A DNA stretch of 64,000 nt, from the NCBI GenBank assembly GCA_001788795.1, contig MFXH01000009.1, positions 1-64,000 of the forward strand. Reading direction: 5' to 3'. Position 1 is the stretch's first letter. Every line of letters starts with the position of its first letter. Below are positions 7,164 to 59,450 of this stretch, in pieces. Source of the stretch: Candidatus Peregrinibacteria bacterium RIFOXYA2_FULL_41_18 (lineage in GTDB: Bacteria > Patescibacteriota > Gracilibacteria > UBA1369 > UBA12470). Position numbers and translations under genes: made by a program. The notes under the pieces are model-generated. The model was not told the DNA's origin. It saw only the letters and a list, made by a program, of their open reading frames with translations, and searched no databases.

Positions 7164-7279
7164 GGGGAAGTAGAAGAAGTAGGGGAAGTGACATAGTTAT
7201 GTGGTGATGGAGTTTTGCTAATGCAAAATGATTTGATAGTATTGCGCCGATATGAGTTTTTTATACAAAAAACAGCTCG

Positions 7280-25133: not shown

Positions 25134-26277
25134 ATTCTTTGAGTAAAAGAAGTGCGAGCAAAGTTGTAACCGAGCTTATTATAATCGGTATTTCATCTCC
25201 AAAGGAAGAGCCTATTGGGCCGAATACAAAAGAACTTAATGCGATAGCTGAAGTTTGTGTTAATGTAATAAGTCCTGAGTTTCCGCCAATCCGTTCTTTT
25301 TTGAAAAGTTCAGAAACTCCAGTATAAAGAAATACAAACATCATTGCGTCGCCCGATTCGTGAATTATTCTGCCTAATAGAGAGATAGGAATGATTGGAA
25401 TTATCATTATCAGATATCCGATTCCGGAGAATAATAATCCTAGTGTTACAATTGTTTTCATTTTTGTGCCTTTTTCCAACGAGCGATTTGATAATCTTAC
25501 TGTTGCGAACATGCATATGATTGCGGTTCCCATGTATGCGCCCATTTGAGGGAAAGTGAGTCCGAGTGTGTTTTTTAGAAACGGTCCATAAGATGTGAAT
25601 TCAGATCCCATATGGATTGCGAACGAGAAGATTATTGCCATGAAAAGCAAAACATGAGGTTTTTTGATGTCTTCTTTATAAGACTTCATATCGAATTTAA
25701 AAGTATCCGTGCTTGGTAGTAAAAATGATAAAACGAGTAATGTTGCAATCAGGCTGCTGGTTATTAATAAATATTTTTGAAAATCCATGTGAGCTAAGAC
25801 GTTTCCACTGAATAAGACTCCCAATCCTGCTCCGAGAAGATAGAAGCTGACGAATGTTTTTATCCTTTTTGAAGGTTTTTCTCCTTCAGATGTCTTGTAG
25901 AATAAGCTATCCATCGATACGTTATAAAGTTGTGAGCCGAATCCTCCTAAGAAAAATAGTATTAGCATTATCGTGAAAGACTGAGTGTTGCTTAGAATTA
26001 AGTATTGAAACAGCATTAATATTAATCCAAGTTGGATAATTCTTTTTGAAGGGATCCTGTCATTTAAAAGTCCTCCTGGGAGAGTTATTAACAGCCCCGT
26101 TATCGTGAAAATTGCGAAAAGTATTCCGGACTCTATTCCGTTTAATCCTATTTGTGCGAAATATATTGCCCAAAAGAATCCAAGGGAGTTGGTTGTAAAT
26201 CTTTGGATGCTATGGATTAAGGTGAGGAGATGTAAGGTTTTTTTGTGCATTTGTTGTAATGAGTTTTGCTGGTGCAA
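25099..26277 (-). CDS. MFS transporter in the aro cluster (start possibly 26250)
   Basis: 12-TM pattern, PGGLLNDRIPSKRIIQLGL; overlaps aroK. Confidence 0.85.
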   Translation of the reverse strand: MHQQNSLQQMHKKTLHLLTLIHSIQRFTTNSLGFFWAIYFAQIGLNGIESGILFAIFTITGLLITLPGGLLNDRIPSKRIIQLGLILMLFQYLILSNTQSFTIMLILFFLGGFGSQLYNVSMDSLFYKTSEGEKPSKRIKTFVSFYLLGAGLGVLFSGNVLAHMDFQKYLLITSSLIATLLVLSFLLPSTDTFKFDMKSYKEDIKKPHVLLFMAIIFSFAIHMGSEFTSYGPFLKNTLGLTFPQMGAYMGTAIICMFATVRLSNRSLEKGTKMKTIVTLGLLFSGIGYLIMIIPIIPISLLGRIIHESGDAMMFVFLYTGVSELFKKERIGGNSGLITLTQTSAIALSSFVFGPIGSSFGDEIPIIISSVTTLLALLLLKEYEHISEKKQKN

Positions 26278-26344
26278 AACAGTTTATATTATGGCGCGAG
26301 GAGCGCTTCCTGCCTACCGGACAGGCAGGCGCTTCCTTGCGCTG
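26261..26344. repeat. Double-hairpin intergenic element, copy E1, overlapping the aroA 3' end
   Basis: GAGTTTTGCTGGTGCAAAACAGTTTATATTATGGCGCGAGGAGCGCTTCCTGCCTACCGGACAGGCAGGCGCTTCCTTGCGCTG. Confidence 0.8.
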
Positions 26345-27474
26345 TTATAATCTTTCCAGAAGTTCGGATATGTTTTTTTTACGCAAGACGGGTTGAGTAT
26401 TTTTATACCATTTATTCTCGATTTTAATATTGCTGCGCACATTGCCATTCGGTGATCATTATATGTTTCGATTGTTGCCGGTTTTGGGTTTGGTGTGCCT
26501 GTTATTTCGAGTCCGTCTTCAAGCTCTATTACGGTTGCACCTATTTTTGAAAGTTCTGTTTTGAGGGCGTGAAGTCGATTTGTTTCTTTGAATCTAAGGT
26601 TATGGAGGCCTGTTAATGTGCTTTTTCCGTTTGCGAAACATGCTATGGTTGCAAGTGTCATTGCGGAGTCGGGGAGATCTCTTAAGTTTACTTTGCCGAG
26701 TGGTTTTAGGTTTTTTGGTGCGATGCAACTAATCCCTTCGTGATCTTCTTTTATTTCGTATCCCATTTTTTGCAAGTATTTGAGCATTTTAATGTCTGCT
26801 TGAAGACTATGCTGGCTTATGTTGAGGACTTTTACCGAACCGAGTGCGAAGAAGTAACTTGCGCTTGATGCATCTGTTTCTATTGTGTATGGCGTACGAA
26901 AATTCTTGATTATGTCTTTTGTCATTTCTATATATGGCTTTGATACTGTTTTGCCGATTATTTTTATTCTGGGGTTCCCAAGCAGCTTTTTTGCCATCAA
27001 AAGTCCAGATATGAATTGGCTGCTTATAAATCCGTTTATTTCTATTGTTTTTAATTTTAGATTTGGGTTGCCATGAATTGTGAGTGGAGGACATCCGTTT
27101 GGTGATTCAATTACGGGTAGTGCTTTTATTATGTCGTGCATTGGGCGCGATTGCATTTGTTTATTTCCGGTGATGCGTGATGTGAAATTTTGGGTTGCGA
27201 GTATTGGAATCAAAAATCTTATCGCGGTTCCCGAATTGCCTATGTTTAGTGTTTTCCGAGGTTTCTGGAAGCGCTTGCCGAGGCCGTGAACTATCATTTG
27301 TGAATCATTTTTTTGTTCAATCTTTACGCCGAGTGCGCGAAGAGCTTTTATTAGATTTCTTGAGTCTTCGCAAAGTAGTGGATTTTTGAGAACTGTTTTT
27401 TCTTTGCGAATGCTCGCAAGGACTAGTGCTCGCGCCATATAGCTTTTCGATCCGGGTACTTTTATTTTGATCAT
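26314..27474 (-). CDS. aroA: 3-phosphoshikimate 1-carboxyvinyltransferase (EPSP synthase)
   Basis: VPGSKSYMARALVLASI; NIGNSGTAIRFL; GNKQMQSRPM; RFKETNRLHAL; TYNDHRMAMCAAI. Confidence 0.93.
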   Translation of the reverse strand: MIKIKVPGSKSYMARALVLASIRKEKTVLKNPLLCEDSRNLIKALRALGVKIEQKNDSQMIVHGLGKRFQKPRKTLNIGNSGTAIRFLIPILATQNFTSRITGNKQMQSRPMHDIIKALPVIESPNGCPPLTIHGNPNLKLKTIEINGFISSQFISGLLMAKKLLGNPRIKIIGKTVSKPYIEMTKDIIKNFRTPYTIETDASSASYFFALGSVKVLNISQHSLQADIKMLKYLQKMGYEIKEDHEGISCIAPKNLKPLGKVNLRDLPDSAMTLATIACFANGKSTLTGLHNLRFKETNRLHALKTELSKIGATVIELEDGLEITGTPNPKPATIETYNDHRMAMCAAILKSRINGIKILNPSCVKKTYPNFWKDYNSARKRLPVR

Positions 27475-34099: not shown

Positions 34100-34177
34100 G
34101 GCGACGTCGCCAAGTGGTCTAAGGCAGCGGTTTGCAAAACCGCCATCTCGTGGGTTCAAATCCCACCGTCGCCTCCA
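34100..34177 (+). tRNA. tRNA-Cys(GCA)
   Basis: GGCGACG...CGTCGCC T CCA; anticodon loop TTGCAAA; discriminator U. Confidence 0.95.
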
Positions 34178-34242
34178 CAGCGCAAAGACGCGAAGCATTC
34201 TTTGCGCCATATTATGAGTTGTTTTGCAGAAGGCAAAACTCC
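34178..34242. repeat. Double-hairpin intergenic element, copy E2
   Basis: Reverse complement GGAGTTTTGCCTTCTGCAAAACAACTCATAATATGGCGCAAAGAATGCTTCGCGTCTTTGCGCTG. Confidence 0.85.
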
Positions 34243-34246
34243 TTCT

Positions 34247-34593: not shown

Positions 34594-34642
34594 TAGGCCG
34601 GTAGCGAAGCGGACGGCCCATATTATCAAATCGTTTTGTTGT
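34594..34642. repeat. Double-hairpin element, divergent copy E6
   Basis: Reverse complement ACAAAACGATTTGATAATATGGGCCGTCCGCTTCGCTACCGGCC, starts at the CCA of tRNA-Leu. Confidence 0.55.
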
Positions 34643-47085: not shown

Positions 47086-47089
47086 AAAA

Positions 47090-47152
47090 GAGTTTTGCTT
47101 TCGCAAAACAGCTTATAATATGGCGCAAGTAATGCTTCGCGTCCTTGCGCTG
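47090..47152. repeat. Double-hairpin intergenic element, copy E3
   Basis: GAGTTTTGCTTTCGCAAAACAGCTTATAATATGGCGCAAGTAATGCTTCGCGTCCTTGCGCTG, directly abuts clpP stop. Confidence 0.85.
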
Positions 47153-50503: not shown

Positions 50504-51967
<1,464 letters not shown>

Positions 51968-52264
51968 AGGGAGAATCGTCTCACTTCGGTGAGACCTCCT
52001 AGGTCGAAATCCTGCTTGCAGGATTGGCGGATTGGTAACAATTCGCAACCTATAGATAGGGTTTTCTCTATTACACCATAGCTGTCAGGGGGAGTCGCCA
52101 AAAGGCGGTCTCTCTTTATAGGCTCTTAGGGTTTATGCTCTAGGGGTTTTTTGCATGTAGAGTTACAGAATTGCAGAATCACAGATTGGAGTGCTTTTGC
52201 CTCTGTTTTCTGCTTTCTGTGTTTTGCTTTCTGTGCTATAATTATTAGATTTAAAACCAAAAAA

Positions 52265-53278
52265 ATGGCGAGTAGTGTCGACTTTGCATCATCGGATACT
52301 GAAGTTCTTGATACCGGTAGCGGTGGATTTTCCGATTTAACCGTTGCGATTTTTGAAAAGTTTTTTTCTGTTATGGAGGCGGCGTTAATTTTGGTTTTTG
52401 TTTATTTTGCAATGAAATGGCTTCGAAAGTATTTTGCGAAGATTGAGTCTACGCATGAACAACAGAAGACCGCTCTCAATTTTCTAGAGAGAATTATAAA
52501 TGGATTCATACTGGTTATCGGTGTAACCCTCGCTCTTAAGAATGTCGGACTGGACGTGAGTCTTCTTGTGAGTGTTGGTGTGCTTGGTTTGAGCTATGGG
52601 CTTAAGGATGTGATTAAGAACTATGTTGCCGGAATTATTATTTTCTTCAAAGCGCCTTTCAAGATAGGGGATATCGTGAAAATCAAGAAGTTTACCGGTA
52701 AGGTTGATAGAATGGATTTTCAGTCAACCGGTATTAAGACTTTTGATAATAGGGATATTACAATTTATAATTCCGATATCATTTCCGAATCTATAGAAAA
52801 CTATTCAAGATTGCCTGTACGCAGGATGGAAATAGATGTTCGTTTTGGCTACGGTACAGATTTGGAAAAGGCTGTTATTGCTCTTGAAAATATTTTAAAA
52901 AGCGAACCTGCTATTCAGCAAAAGCCTAAGTTTTCTGTTGTTTTTAAGAAGTTTGCGCAAGATGCGATGATTGTACAGCTGAGATTCTGGGTTTCCGTGC
53001 CTTCAAATATGTTAGCAGTGAGATCTTCTGTGGCGTTTAAGATTCATCAAATGTTTGATGAGATTGTGATTTATTCTCCATATATGAAAAGCATTGAGAC
53101 TGATAAGAGTTTTGCCCAGGGAGCTGAAGAAAAATCCAAACTCAAAGATTTCTTGGCAGGACCTGTTGTTACAGGCAAAGAACAGCCGGCACTTGCCGTT
53201 GCTGTTGCCGGTGCTGAAGTTACTCCTGAGATTGCCGATTCGGATGAACCTTATTCGATTGAAGAGGATTTGAAATAG
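52265..53278 (+). CDS. MscS-family mechanosensitive channel (start likely 52265)
   Basis: VSVGVLGLSYGLKDVIKNYVAGIIIFFKAPFKIGDIVKI; FDNRDITIYNSDI. Confidence 0.9.
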   Translation: MASSVDFASSDTEVLDTGSGGFSDLTVAIFEKFFSVMEAALILVFVYFAMKWLRKYFAKIESTHEQQKTALNFLERIINGFILVIGVTLALKNVGLDVSLLVSVGVLGLSYGLKDVIKNYVAGIIIFFKAPFKIGDIVKIKKFTGKVDRMDFQSTGIKTFDNRDITIYNSDIISESIENYSRLPVRRMEIDVRFGYGTDLEKAVIALENILKSEPAIQQKPKFSVVFKKFAQDAMIVQLRFWVSVPSNMLAVRSSVAFKIHQMFDEIVIYSPYMKSIETDKSFAQGAEEKSKLKDFLAGPVVTGKEQPALAVAVAGAEVTPEIADSDEPYSIEEDLK

Positions 53279-53348
53279 AGTATTTGTGTTTGACTCAATG
53301 AGCGTATTTTATTAAAGTGTCCGTTGTCTTCTTTGACAAAAATGATTT

Positions 53349-53425
53349 GGGCGAGTAGCTCAGCTGGTTAGAGCGCGTCGCTGATAACGACGAGGTCAGT
53401 GGTTCGAGTCCACTCCCGCCCACCA
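53349..53425 (+). tRNA. tRNA-Ile(GAT)
   Basis: Cloverleaf; anticodon loop CTGATAA; CCA encoded. Confidence 0.95.
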
Positions 53426-53461
53426 GATGCTCAATCGCTCTGGATCATAAAAAAATACTGT

Positions 53462-53538
53462 GGGGCATTAGCTTAGTTGGCTAGAGCGCCGCGTTTGCAC
53501 CGCGGAGGTCGAGGGTTCGACTCCCTCATGCTCCACCA
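53462..53538 (+). tRNA. tRNA-Ala(TGC)
   Basis: GGGGCAT...ATGCTCC A CCA; anticodon loop TTTGCAC. Confidence 0.95.
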
Positions 53539-53595
53539 CAGTAGTCGCTTCATAAGCGACCTTTATTATTAAGTTGTTTTGCGGATGCAAAACTC
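53539..53595. repeat. Double-hairpin intergenic element, copy E4
   Basis: Reverse complement GGAGTTTTGCATCCGCAAAACAACTTAATAATAAAGGTCGCTTATGAAGCGACTACTG. Confidence 0.8.
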
Positions 53596-54225
53596 CTATT
53601 TAACCCATTCAATTTCTCTTCCGATTTCTTTTCTTGTATCAATCTCCACCCAGTCCGTTTCTATTCCTATGCAGCATAAGTGCATGGAGTCTGAATATTT
53701 GCCTTTATATAATTCGTCTCCGACTATTGGACATCCTGCTGAAGCCAAATGAACTCTTATTTGATGTCTGGCGCCTTGTTGTATTTTGCATTCGAGAAGT
53801 GTTTCGCTGATTTTTTTTATATAAGTTTTTGCATTAATAGGTTTACCTTTGTAATCGATTTTTTTATCAACAGTTAATACTGCCATTCTTTTTGAAGATT
53901 TGTGTACGATAGGGAAGTTAATTTCATTGGTTTCAGGTGCGGTATCTGAAATTTCTGCAAGATAAATTTTCTTGAGATTTTTATCCTGAATGAATTTATC
54001 GTGAGCTTCTTTATTTTTTGCAAATAAAACTAGTCCGCAGGTTTCGTTATCCAATCTGTAAAGCAGGCCTCCTTCTTCTTCTTTGAATCCCGAGAAAGTG
54101 AATAGTTCCGGATGATATTTTTTAACTTCTTCTACGAAACATCCGGATTTTGCTCCGTAAGTTGTCGGTGTTCCGGCAGGTTTAAAGAATCCAATGTAGT
54201 TTTTGTCTTCAAAAAGTATTTCCAT
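53596..54225 (-). CDS. RluA-family pseudouridine synthase
   Basis: YRLDNETCGLVLFAKN; QGARHQIRVHLASAGCPIVGDELY. Confidence 0.9.
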   Translation of the reverse strand: MEILFEDKNYIGFFKPAGTPTTYGAKSGCFVEEVKKYHPELFTFSGFKEEEGGLLYRLDNETCGLVLFAKNKEAHDKFIQDKNLKKIYLAEISDTAPETNEINFPIVHKSSKRMAVLTVDKKIDYKGKPINAKTYIKKISETLLECKIQQGARHQIRVHLASAGCPIVGDELYKGKYSDSMHLCCIGIETDWVEIDTRKEIGREIEWVK

Positions 54226-54309
54226 GACCTGATTGTATATTGCTCAAGGCTTTATTTCCATCTCGTTTTCTGGTATAATTAAACGATTATACATTTTGTC
54301 AATCCTGTT

Positions 54310-55497
54310 GTGAATGAGATAGTAAAATACAAATCGCCAAAACTCTCTACTGGAGGAAGAATGTTCAGTTACATGATGTTCTTCTACTGTTTGGCTGTGG
54401 CGTTTGTGGCTCCGATGTTTCCGGATTATTTGGAGCGAGTTACTGGTTCGGCGATGTATGTTGGTATTTTTATCGCTATTTCTTCGTTTACAACTTTGCT
54501 TGCCAGTTTGTTTGTTTCTAAGATTCTTCATAAGGTTTCCAAGATTTTGCTTATGTACATAGGATTTTTGAGCATGGCTGTGATTTTTGCTCTTTATTCT
54601 TTTGTTGATTCCTTCTCTGTCGTTTTGGCGTTGCAAATAGTGAAAGGTATTGCGATTGCTGTTTTATTCGTTGTCATCCCGTTGATGGTCCGCGATTATA
54701 CTGCCAAGAAGAGTCTTGTTCATGAAGAAGGCGTATATTATTTCTTGTTAAATTTGGCCTGGGTTATAGGTCCTGTTGCAGGAGGTCTATTTGCTTTATA
54801 TGTGGATGATTTGTTGATGTTTTGGTTTGCTGTTGCGGTTTTTCTGATCGCGGTGATTTTTTTGCGTCATGAAGATATTATGGAAGTTGATACTAGAGAG
54901 AAAAAAAAGGTTAAAAAGTGTCTCCAAAGCTTGAAAGAGTATTTTAGCAGATGGCCACTTGTAAAAGCATATTTAATGGATTTCGGTCTTTTCGTTTGGT
55001 GGTCGATTACTACAATGTCTGTGCCTCTTTATATGGTTAAGAATGGAATGCCTGAAATTGTAGGAGGTGTCGCTATGTCTTTGCAGCTTGTACCTTTAAT
55101 TCTTCTCGAAAACTGGATTGGTAAAACTGCCAAAGATGGAAAGATGGGTTTATATATAGAAAGAGGTTTTCTTGTTATGGTTATGTTTATTTTCATGATG
55201 GCGTTTGTGGATAATGTTTATTTCTCTATAGCTATGCTTTTTTGTTCCAGTATAGGTGCGGCTTATATTGAGCCTATCAAAGAAACTTATCTGTTTAGAC
55301 ATATGAAAAAAGAAGAGGAAGATGATCTCTTCCCGATTTATGCAACTGCGAGACAAGTCGGTTATTTCGTAGGTCCGTTGATGGCAGGTTTTTTCATATC
55401 GTATTTCTCATATCAAGTGTTGTTTTTTGCTGCAGGATTTGTTTTACTTCCTATGGCTTTTATAGGTTATTTAATTCATAAGGAAACTTCCAAATGA
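54310..55497 (+). CDS. MFS transporter (GTG start or internal ATG)
   Basis: 12-TM pattern. Confidence 0.82.
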   Translation: MNEIVKYKSPKLSTGGRMFSYMMFFYCLAVAFVAPMFPDYLERVTGSAMYVGIFIAISSFTTLLASLFVSKILHKVSKILLMYIGFLSMAVIFALYSFVDSFSVVLALQIVKGIAIAVLFVVIPLMVRDYTAKKSLVHEEGVYYFLLNLAWVIGPVAGGLFALYVDDLLMFWFAVAVFLIAVIFLRHEDIMEVDTREKKKVKKCLQSLKEYFSRWPLVKAYLMDFGLFVWWSITTMSVPLYMVKNGMPEIVGGVAMSLQLVPLILLENWIGKTAKDGKMGLYIERGFLVMVMFIFMMAFVDNVYFSIAMLFCSSIGAAYIEPIKETYLFRHMKKEEEDDLFPIYATARQVGYFVGPLMAGFFISYFSYQVLFFAAGFVLLPMAFIGYLIHKETSK

Positions 55498-55730
55498 GTA
55501 GATATATTATAGGTTTTCTGGCCATGATTGGAGGATTTTTAATACTTGTTTATAGGGCGAAAGTAAAAGATTTGGTCGGCGATATTGGTTTTGCCGAGAA
55601 ATACATAGGTGTTGGTGGTACCTGGACTTTTTTGATTCTTTTGGGAATTGGATTTTTTATATTCGGTCTTATGTGGATGACCGGAACTTTGCAGTCCGGA
55701 GTTGGGGGTTTTCTAGGAGGGATTTTCTGA
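55494..55730 (+). CDS. Small membrane protein (78 aa)
   Basis: Two hydrophobic segments; 4-nt overlap with upstream MFS gene. Confidence 0.65.
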   Translation: MSRYIIGFLAMIGGFLILVYRAKVKDLVGDIGFAEKYIGVGGTWTFLILLGIGFFIFGLMWMTGTLQSGVGGFLGGIF

Positions 55731-55823
55731 AAAAGAGGCGAAGAATTGAAGAAGTGAAGAGTGTGAATTAACGAAGAGAATGATGGTTTCGTCAATTTCT
55801 TTTAAGATTTTGCAAAAATAATG

Positions 55824-55852
55824 TTGACATTATCTTGAGTGATAAATATAAT
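55824..55852 (+). promoter_or_regulatory. Perfect-consensus promoter for 23S
   Basis: TTGACA-17-TATAAT, then C-CTTTCGCTTT. Confidence 0.88.
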
Positions 55853-55907
55853 CCTTTCGCTTTGTTAGTTTTACATTCCAAATCCCTTCTAATATTTTTG
55901 TTTTTTT

Positions 55908-55990
55908 CGCACTCTCCAGTCTAGTAACTTAAAAGGTAAAGCCTTGGCGGTTGATAGGTTGAAGAGTGCGTAAAGTCGCACTCTTTTTTC
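55908..55990 (+). promoter_or_regulatory. 23S leader with competing hairpins ending in a terminator
   Basis: CGCACTCT (55908-55915) ... AGAGTGCG (55963-55970) TAAAGT CGCACTCT (55977-55984) TTTTTTC. Confidence 0.75.
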
Positions 55991-56185
55991 TTCACAAGGT
56001 TGTGGGGGGAACGAACTGCCCATTGAAAATCAGGTGACTAGAATTATTCATATATATCAAAATTCAATGTTCAATATTAAGCATAATAAATTTTCAGAAT
56101 TAAATAATTAATTCTGATGTCTTTTTTTCAAATTTTTGTCTAGGTGATTTTTTCAAGTTACCAGACAAAAGGTGGGAAGTAATTT

Positions 56186-59192
<3,007 letters not shown>

Positions 59193-59303
59193 TTACTTTC
59201 CTTTAGGCTTTAATCAGTGATAAGGGCGATTCATCGTCTTTGTCACTGGTTTAAAGCTCCTTTTGTCTGATATTTTGAAAAAATTCTAGGAAATTTGTTC
59301 TTT

Positions 59304-59450
59304 TAAAAAAAGGCACAATCTTGGTGGCTATAGAGGTTGGGGTACACCTGTTCCCATCCCGAACACAGAAGTTAAGCCAACCTTCGCCGATGGTACTGAC
59401 CAATTAAGGGTCGGGAGAGTAGGGCGTCGCCAAGATTGTGCCTTTTTTTT
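59304..59450 (+). terminator. 5S-enclosing stem plus terminator
   Basis: AAAAAAAGGCACAATCTTGG paired perfectly with CCAAGATTGTGCCTTTTTTT around 5S. Confidence 0.8.
59320..59435 (+). rRNA. 5S ribosomal RNA (ends approximate)
   Basis: TTGGTGGC...CCCATCCCGAACACAGAAGTTAAGCC...GTCGCCAA. Confidence 0.93.

Follow-up and report, generated by a model that had tools for sequence, protein, structure and literature searches.

In the 64,000-nt window (the whole stretch of DNA that was analysed), the gap between the tRNA-Cys and tRNA-Trp genes is occupied by a full copy of a short double-hairpin element (34178..34243, minus strand; 52.3 bits with the covariance model), the CTG end of which abuts the CCA of tRNA-Cys at 34177. 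On the same strand, its hairpin 2 folds as GCGCAAAGAATGCTTCGCGTCTTTGCGC (34180..34207), its AT-rich linker corresponds to AACTCATAATATG (34208..34220) and its hairpin 1 to GTTTTGC-CTTCT-GCAAAAC (34221..34239). Another full element, of 65 nt, fills the gap between the convergent AMMECR1 and clpP genes (47088..47152, plus strand; 58.3 bits), with its CTG end abutting the clpP stop codon, and a third one lies between tRNA-Ala, with its CCA at 53538, and a convergent RluA-like gene (53539..53597, minus strand; hairpin 2 folding as GGTCGCTT/AAGCGACT). The copy at 26259..26344 (plus strand; fold and covariance model) has an enlarged hairpin 2 and provides, inside the element, the stop codon (26314-26316) of aroA (26314-27474). 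All the copies listed in the initial annotation are present, these four being strong; hairpin 2 has decayed in the copy at 7208..7253 (plus strand; 44.7 bits), which keeps hairpin 1 and the linker intact, and the copy at 34594..34640 (minus strand) is truncated, its hairpin 1 having no 5' arm and its hairpin 2 abutting the CCA of tRNA-Leu. Concerning the surroundings of the third copy, the rRNA operon is interrupted (50504-59435): an MscS-like channel gene (52265-53278), tRNA-Ile, tRNA-Ala, the opposite-strand RluA-like gene (53596-54225) and another coding sequence (54310-55497) are found between 16S and 23S.

Read 5' to 3', the consensus is (A/T)GGA-GTTTTGC-N4-GCAAAAC-RRCTTATAATATGG-(hairpin 2)-CTG, i.e. 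two adjacent hairpins joined via an AT-rich linker, hairpin 2 being variable and GC. The head before hairpin 1 is GGAG in the majority of the copies and GTG in a few, and the length, with ends set by alignment, ranges from about 50 to 90 nt, 65 nt being the commonest. The pattern GTTTTGC-N4-GCAAAAC, with up to two mismatches, occurs six times in the window vs. 0.52 expected (maximum of three in 100 shuffles), and the reversed-pattern control gave no matches. Two of these six matches do not correspond to the element; the 34178 copy, because of its 5-nt loop, is not among the six. The TATAAT of the linker was also considered as a promoter and rejected, with no -35 that matches at the proper spacing and no sigma-70 promoter called over the element.

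The initial annotation gave GTTTTGC/GCAAAAC as the hairpin 1 consensus; besides this version, copies carry GTTTCGC/GCGAAAC, GATTGC/GCAATC, GATCGC/GCGATC or GTTTGC/GCAAAC, nearly all changes being compensated. Among 52 distinct sequences, 98.7% of the hairpin 1 cells are paired and 54 cells are double-changed vs. 19.5 in shuffles, with two-sided change in four of the six pairs and far lower values in slid controls. This covariation supports the proposal that the structure of hairpin 1 is selected. The same pairing pattern would also be expected from a constraint at the DNA level, so that covariation alone does not prove an RNA role. Hairpin 2, which begins directly after the linker, occurs as several unrelated sequences, self-complementary in most copies as had been noticed; the compensatory change that was expected of it takes the form of self-complementarity across different sequences, without formal covariation.

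A covariance-model scan of the genome and its relatives, as suggested initially, yielded at least 71 copies, with contexts checked, in the 1.24-Mb genome that holds the window (G000), and about 20 in one genome of the same family (G002). The first model (R1), which covers hairpin 1 and the linker, gives 62 matches in G000 at E<0.01, the weaker of which include some reverse-strand echoes of the palindromic stem, and the second (R2), built from short-stem copies, adds about a dozen G000 copies. As only the best candidates are scored in each search, the total of 71 is a minimum; scores under about 25 bits make a copy uncertain, and some of these low-scoring copies are degenerate. At E<1e-5, R1 matched only G000 (42) and G002 (6) among 89 genomes of the order, and R2 matched the same two only among 353 genomes of the class, 351 of which gave zero. 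Two or three weak copies were found in another genome of the family (G001). Genomes are small across the order, which would point to Patescibacteria. The closest 65-mer copies are about 91% identical, with a median of 77%, and to judge from this best identity the elements probably moved long ago, or move slowly at present. No Rfam covariance model matched the element, even at a relaxed threshold, and the open-licence literature yielded no relevant report of palindromic repeats from this region of the tree. Four copies have conserved flanks (CTCCCGTAATCAGAATTAAG before and AAGGTCGCTCAA after) and form a larger composite repeat (L019:5210-5310, L015:13270-13370, L091 at C16:33535 and L195 at C3:67227), also without an Rfam match.

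The tRNA-Cys/tRNA-Trp locus is kept in all three family members (G000, G001 and G002). In G001 it is an empty site, where CCA is followed by a 7-nt gap (AAATCTT) and then by tRNA-Trp; in G000 the full element comes after CCA; in G002, CCA is followed by CAGCGCAAGGAAGGTTCTGCGATCCTCCAT (CAGCGCAAGGA..CCTCCAT), with both element ends kept and the middle lost, which, to judge from its sequence, is an internally deleted and decayed remnant. At tRNA-Ile/tRNA-Ala, G002 has a copy after Ile, where G000 has none, and the G000 copy follows Ala. No recognisable copy was found in the AMMECR1/clpP gap of G002. The empty site, the decayed remnant, the different sites in the two genera and the in-frame gene insertions described below together support a mobile element, in line with the REP-like mobile role that was among those first proposed; as far as these alignments tell, it is an insertion element. 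A search for target-site duplications over 33-65 copies gave no significant signal, the copy in a radical-SAM gene having a perfect 4-bp AGGG. Terminal inverted repeats were not found either: the ends, (A/T)GGAG and CTG, are not complementary and the hairpins are subterminal.

The distribution of the copies relative to genes was analysed on 452 kb of G000, with approximate, hexamer-based gene calls. Coding and RNA genes represent 91% of this sample and intergenic DNA 9%; 56 of the 71 copies (79%) are intergenic, nine lie inside genes and six at gene edges. Within 100 nt, the CTG side points toward gene 3' ends (26:9) and the GGAG side toward gene 5' ends (28:9), and in tandem gene pairs the orientation is 27:11 (p=0.014), with the same tendency among the G002 copies. 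The enrichment at gene 3' ends is real, as anticipated, and polar. The claim that the CTG end abuts a tRNA CCA or a stop codon also held: in G000 and G002, all ten tRNA-adjacent copies end precisely at the encoded CCA, and many protein-gene copies abut the stop codon, as at clpP, or provide it, as in aroA. About 10 of 29 sampled G000 tRNA genes have such a hairpin directly after CCA, in a sample biased toward loci retrieved for holding the element. Other hairpin repeat families, unlike the element, were observed after tRNA-Ser (ATCCCCGC...GCGGGGAT) and tRNA-Arg/Leu genes (L021:14324, L047:969; L200:1655, L016:10034).

Intergenic gaps, put forward as the setting of the family, do not account for all copies: about ten lie in frame inside conserved genes and add 21-23 residues. 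Their hosts include genes for a radical-SAM protein, an endonuclease IV-like TIM-barrel protein, a transketolase N-domain, CoaBC, IlvD, DprA, an acetyltransferase-like/DUF218 protein and a HAD/nucleotidyltransferase protein; in S-adenosylhomocysteine hydrolase, the element comes directly after the start codon. One frame gives the recurrent translated segments NGVSHSRNNLYYGARTASLSCA, NGVSHSRNGLNDGAKNASRPCV, NGVSHSRNDLSDGARNASRPSA and GGVSHPRNGLGYGARNASRPSA, and further segments are read in other frames or on the reverse strand. The radical-SAM protein reads QISQ-(23 residues)-GGIGREY vs. QISQ-GGIGREY in its orthologues, a difference of 69 nt in the DNA. Similar clean gaps of about 23 residues in the orthologues face the inserts of the endonuclease IV-like protein and of transketolase-N, which has about 24 extra residues compared to the solved structure PDB 6yak; the boundaries are less clear in DprA and IlvD than in the other hosts. 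A HAD phosphatase and an RfaE2-like nucleotidyltransferase, encoded by separate neighbouring ORFs in G001 and G002, form a single ORF in G000 (L014:11737-12753) with the element at the join, and the repeat may thus have fused two genes naturally.

In G002, a chorismate-binding enzyme and a glycosyltransferase contain in-frame copies proper to this genome, which their orthologues in G000 and G001 lack. Of note, the gene of this chorismate-binding enzyme (L213, C6:59943-61664) contains two in-frame inserts, the second of which, GALSTAKRGQNDSMYRPGTATLSG, resembles the element with a diverged stem and linker. Read in the frame that is commonest among the in-gene copies, the consensus linker contains a stop (TTA TAA); this stop is absent in all six in-gene copies of that frame and present in 40 of the 75 other copies, as expected if those frames were kept open. 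From such open frames, we infer that the segments inside genes are translated, and that the cell tolerates them, although translational bypassing of the inserts may occur. The family offers many natural pairs of housekeeping enzymes with and without the insert.

As a whole, it is highly probable that these sequences form a family of short, non-autonomous, invasive palindromic elements, which, in one bacterial family, entered the genome at many sites and mostly survive where they are least harmful. Most survivors would be those abutting the 3' end of a tRNA or protein gene, or kept as in-frame segments of 21-23 residues in tolerant loops. The copies may have moved in the form of single-stranded hairpins, which a transposase of the HUH type (IS200/IS605-like Y1), since lost from G000, would have recognised in trans. 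Such a mechanism is suggested by the single-stranded hairpins, the GGAG tag, the polarity and the lack of a clear target duplication. Neither of the two element-bearing genomes, G000 and G002, has Y1_Tnp (PF01797), so that the HUH/Y1 mobilisation step is one that we infer.

Several other explanations have to be weighed against such an invasive family. If the family were a genuine REP/REPIN or PATE system, with a RAYT or an IS200/IS605 Y1 transposase still active in the lineage to move it, this would fit the GGAG head directly before hairpin 1, the hairpin architecture and the lack of a clear duplication. In G001, a multi-copy IS200-like Y1 gene even has a double hairpin of the same architecture upstream (L110:1430-1472, L113:121-163), in which GTTCGC-N4-GCGAAC is followed by ATCTTACA and by another hairpin, CCCGTAGC/GCTACGGG. 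This double hairpin resembles the element by its layout only, and a link to Y1 transposase genes was rejected since R1 and R2 gave no convincing copy at any of 20 Y1 loci; with no Y1_Tnp in either element-bearing genome, and no recent burst among copies at most about 91% identical, such an active system is unlikely. As for chance or an assembly artefact bringing together unrelated look-alike hairpins, the sequences are short and some copies below 25 bits are degenerate, but the window counts, the reversed-pattern control, the class-wide scan and the orthologous empty site refute this reading, the probability of which is negligible.

The polarity and the exact position could also be due to selection rather than to insertion preference, the element then being a functional RNA boundary at gene 3' ends, acting in termination, 3'-end protection or tRNA trailer processing. 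The bias of the CTG and GGAG sides, the copies flush with CCA, the proportion of sampled tRNA genes followed by a hairpin and the covariation of hairpin 1 would all agree with it. However, hairpin 2 is not followed by a U-tract and no intrinsic terminator was called at 34178-34242, so that the bidirectional terminator or RNA processing site also envisaged in the initial annotation found no support in the sequence; among the copies, only that at 47088 gave a terminator call, which is weak and falls on its hairpin 1 (47092-47109). Many tRNAs lack the element and orthologous tRNAs differ in this respect among G000, G001 and G002, which indicates that it is not needed there. Moreover, some copies are decayed, and the copies within reading frames argue against obligatory termination or cleavage. 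A boundary function for the family is hence improbable, while individual copies may act as terminators or in RNA processing.

The exact abutment on the tRNA CCA represents a concrete puzzle, which random insertion followed by selection does not explain. It might reflect a site-directed entry recognising tRNA 3' ends, exactly at CCA and with constant polarity, and perhaps stop-codon boundaries, for instance if integration came after the joining of element RNA or single-stranded DNA to the tRNA end. Copies inside genes would then be by-products, giving rise as well to new segments of protein and to fused genes. We regard such an entry as quite unlikely and retain the invasive palindromic family, surviving where it does least harm, as the explanation to be compared with known systems.

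Like the enterobacterial ERIC and the Correia/NEMIS MITEs of Neisseria, the element is small, non-autonomous and found in gaps, with some in-frame ORF fusions (PMC2229807), but those MITEs have terminal inverted repeats and target duplications, while here the hairpins are subterminal and no duplication was demonstrated. The Caulobacter CIR also consists of two independent stem-loops and a linker (PMC2229807); unlike the element, it has a GANTC methylation motif and stops in all frames, and none lies inside genes. With REP/BIME/REPIN sequences, the family shares a short tag before the hairpin, a high copy number, a mainly extragenic location and compensated stem changes (PMC2817692). REPs have a GT(A/G)G head and are associated with a RAYT (PMC2817692), whereas the head is mostly GGAG here, no RAYT/Y1 gene is present in the genome and copies occur inside genes; in addition, a REPIN is an inverted pair of the same REP, and the element has two unlike hairpins.

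The Rickettsia palindromic elements, also found in Wolbachia, are located in gaps and, which is unusual, in frame in conserved housekeeping genes, where they give a recurrent extra peptide (PMC2229807, PMC10969869, PMC3767692). In its behaviour, the element works like them: both are inserted in frame in conserved genes of a small genome with no known transposase. The Rickettsia elements have a long palindrome of about 100-150 bp and come from Rickettsiales, whereas the present element is typically 65 nt long, has two separate hairpins and an AT linker, lies flush with the tRNA CCA and was found only in one family of another class. Most known examples of palindromic repeats invading proteins in frame come from Rickettsiales, and enterics and Neisseria provide scattered cases. 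A separate occurrence in another small-genome lineage, where the element has a sequence, an architecture and a site preference of its own, suggests that this route of adding peptides and fusing genes recurs.
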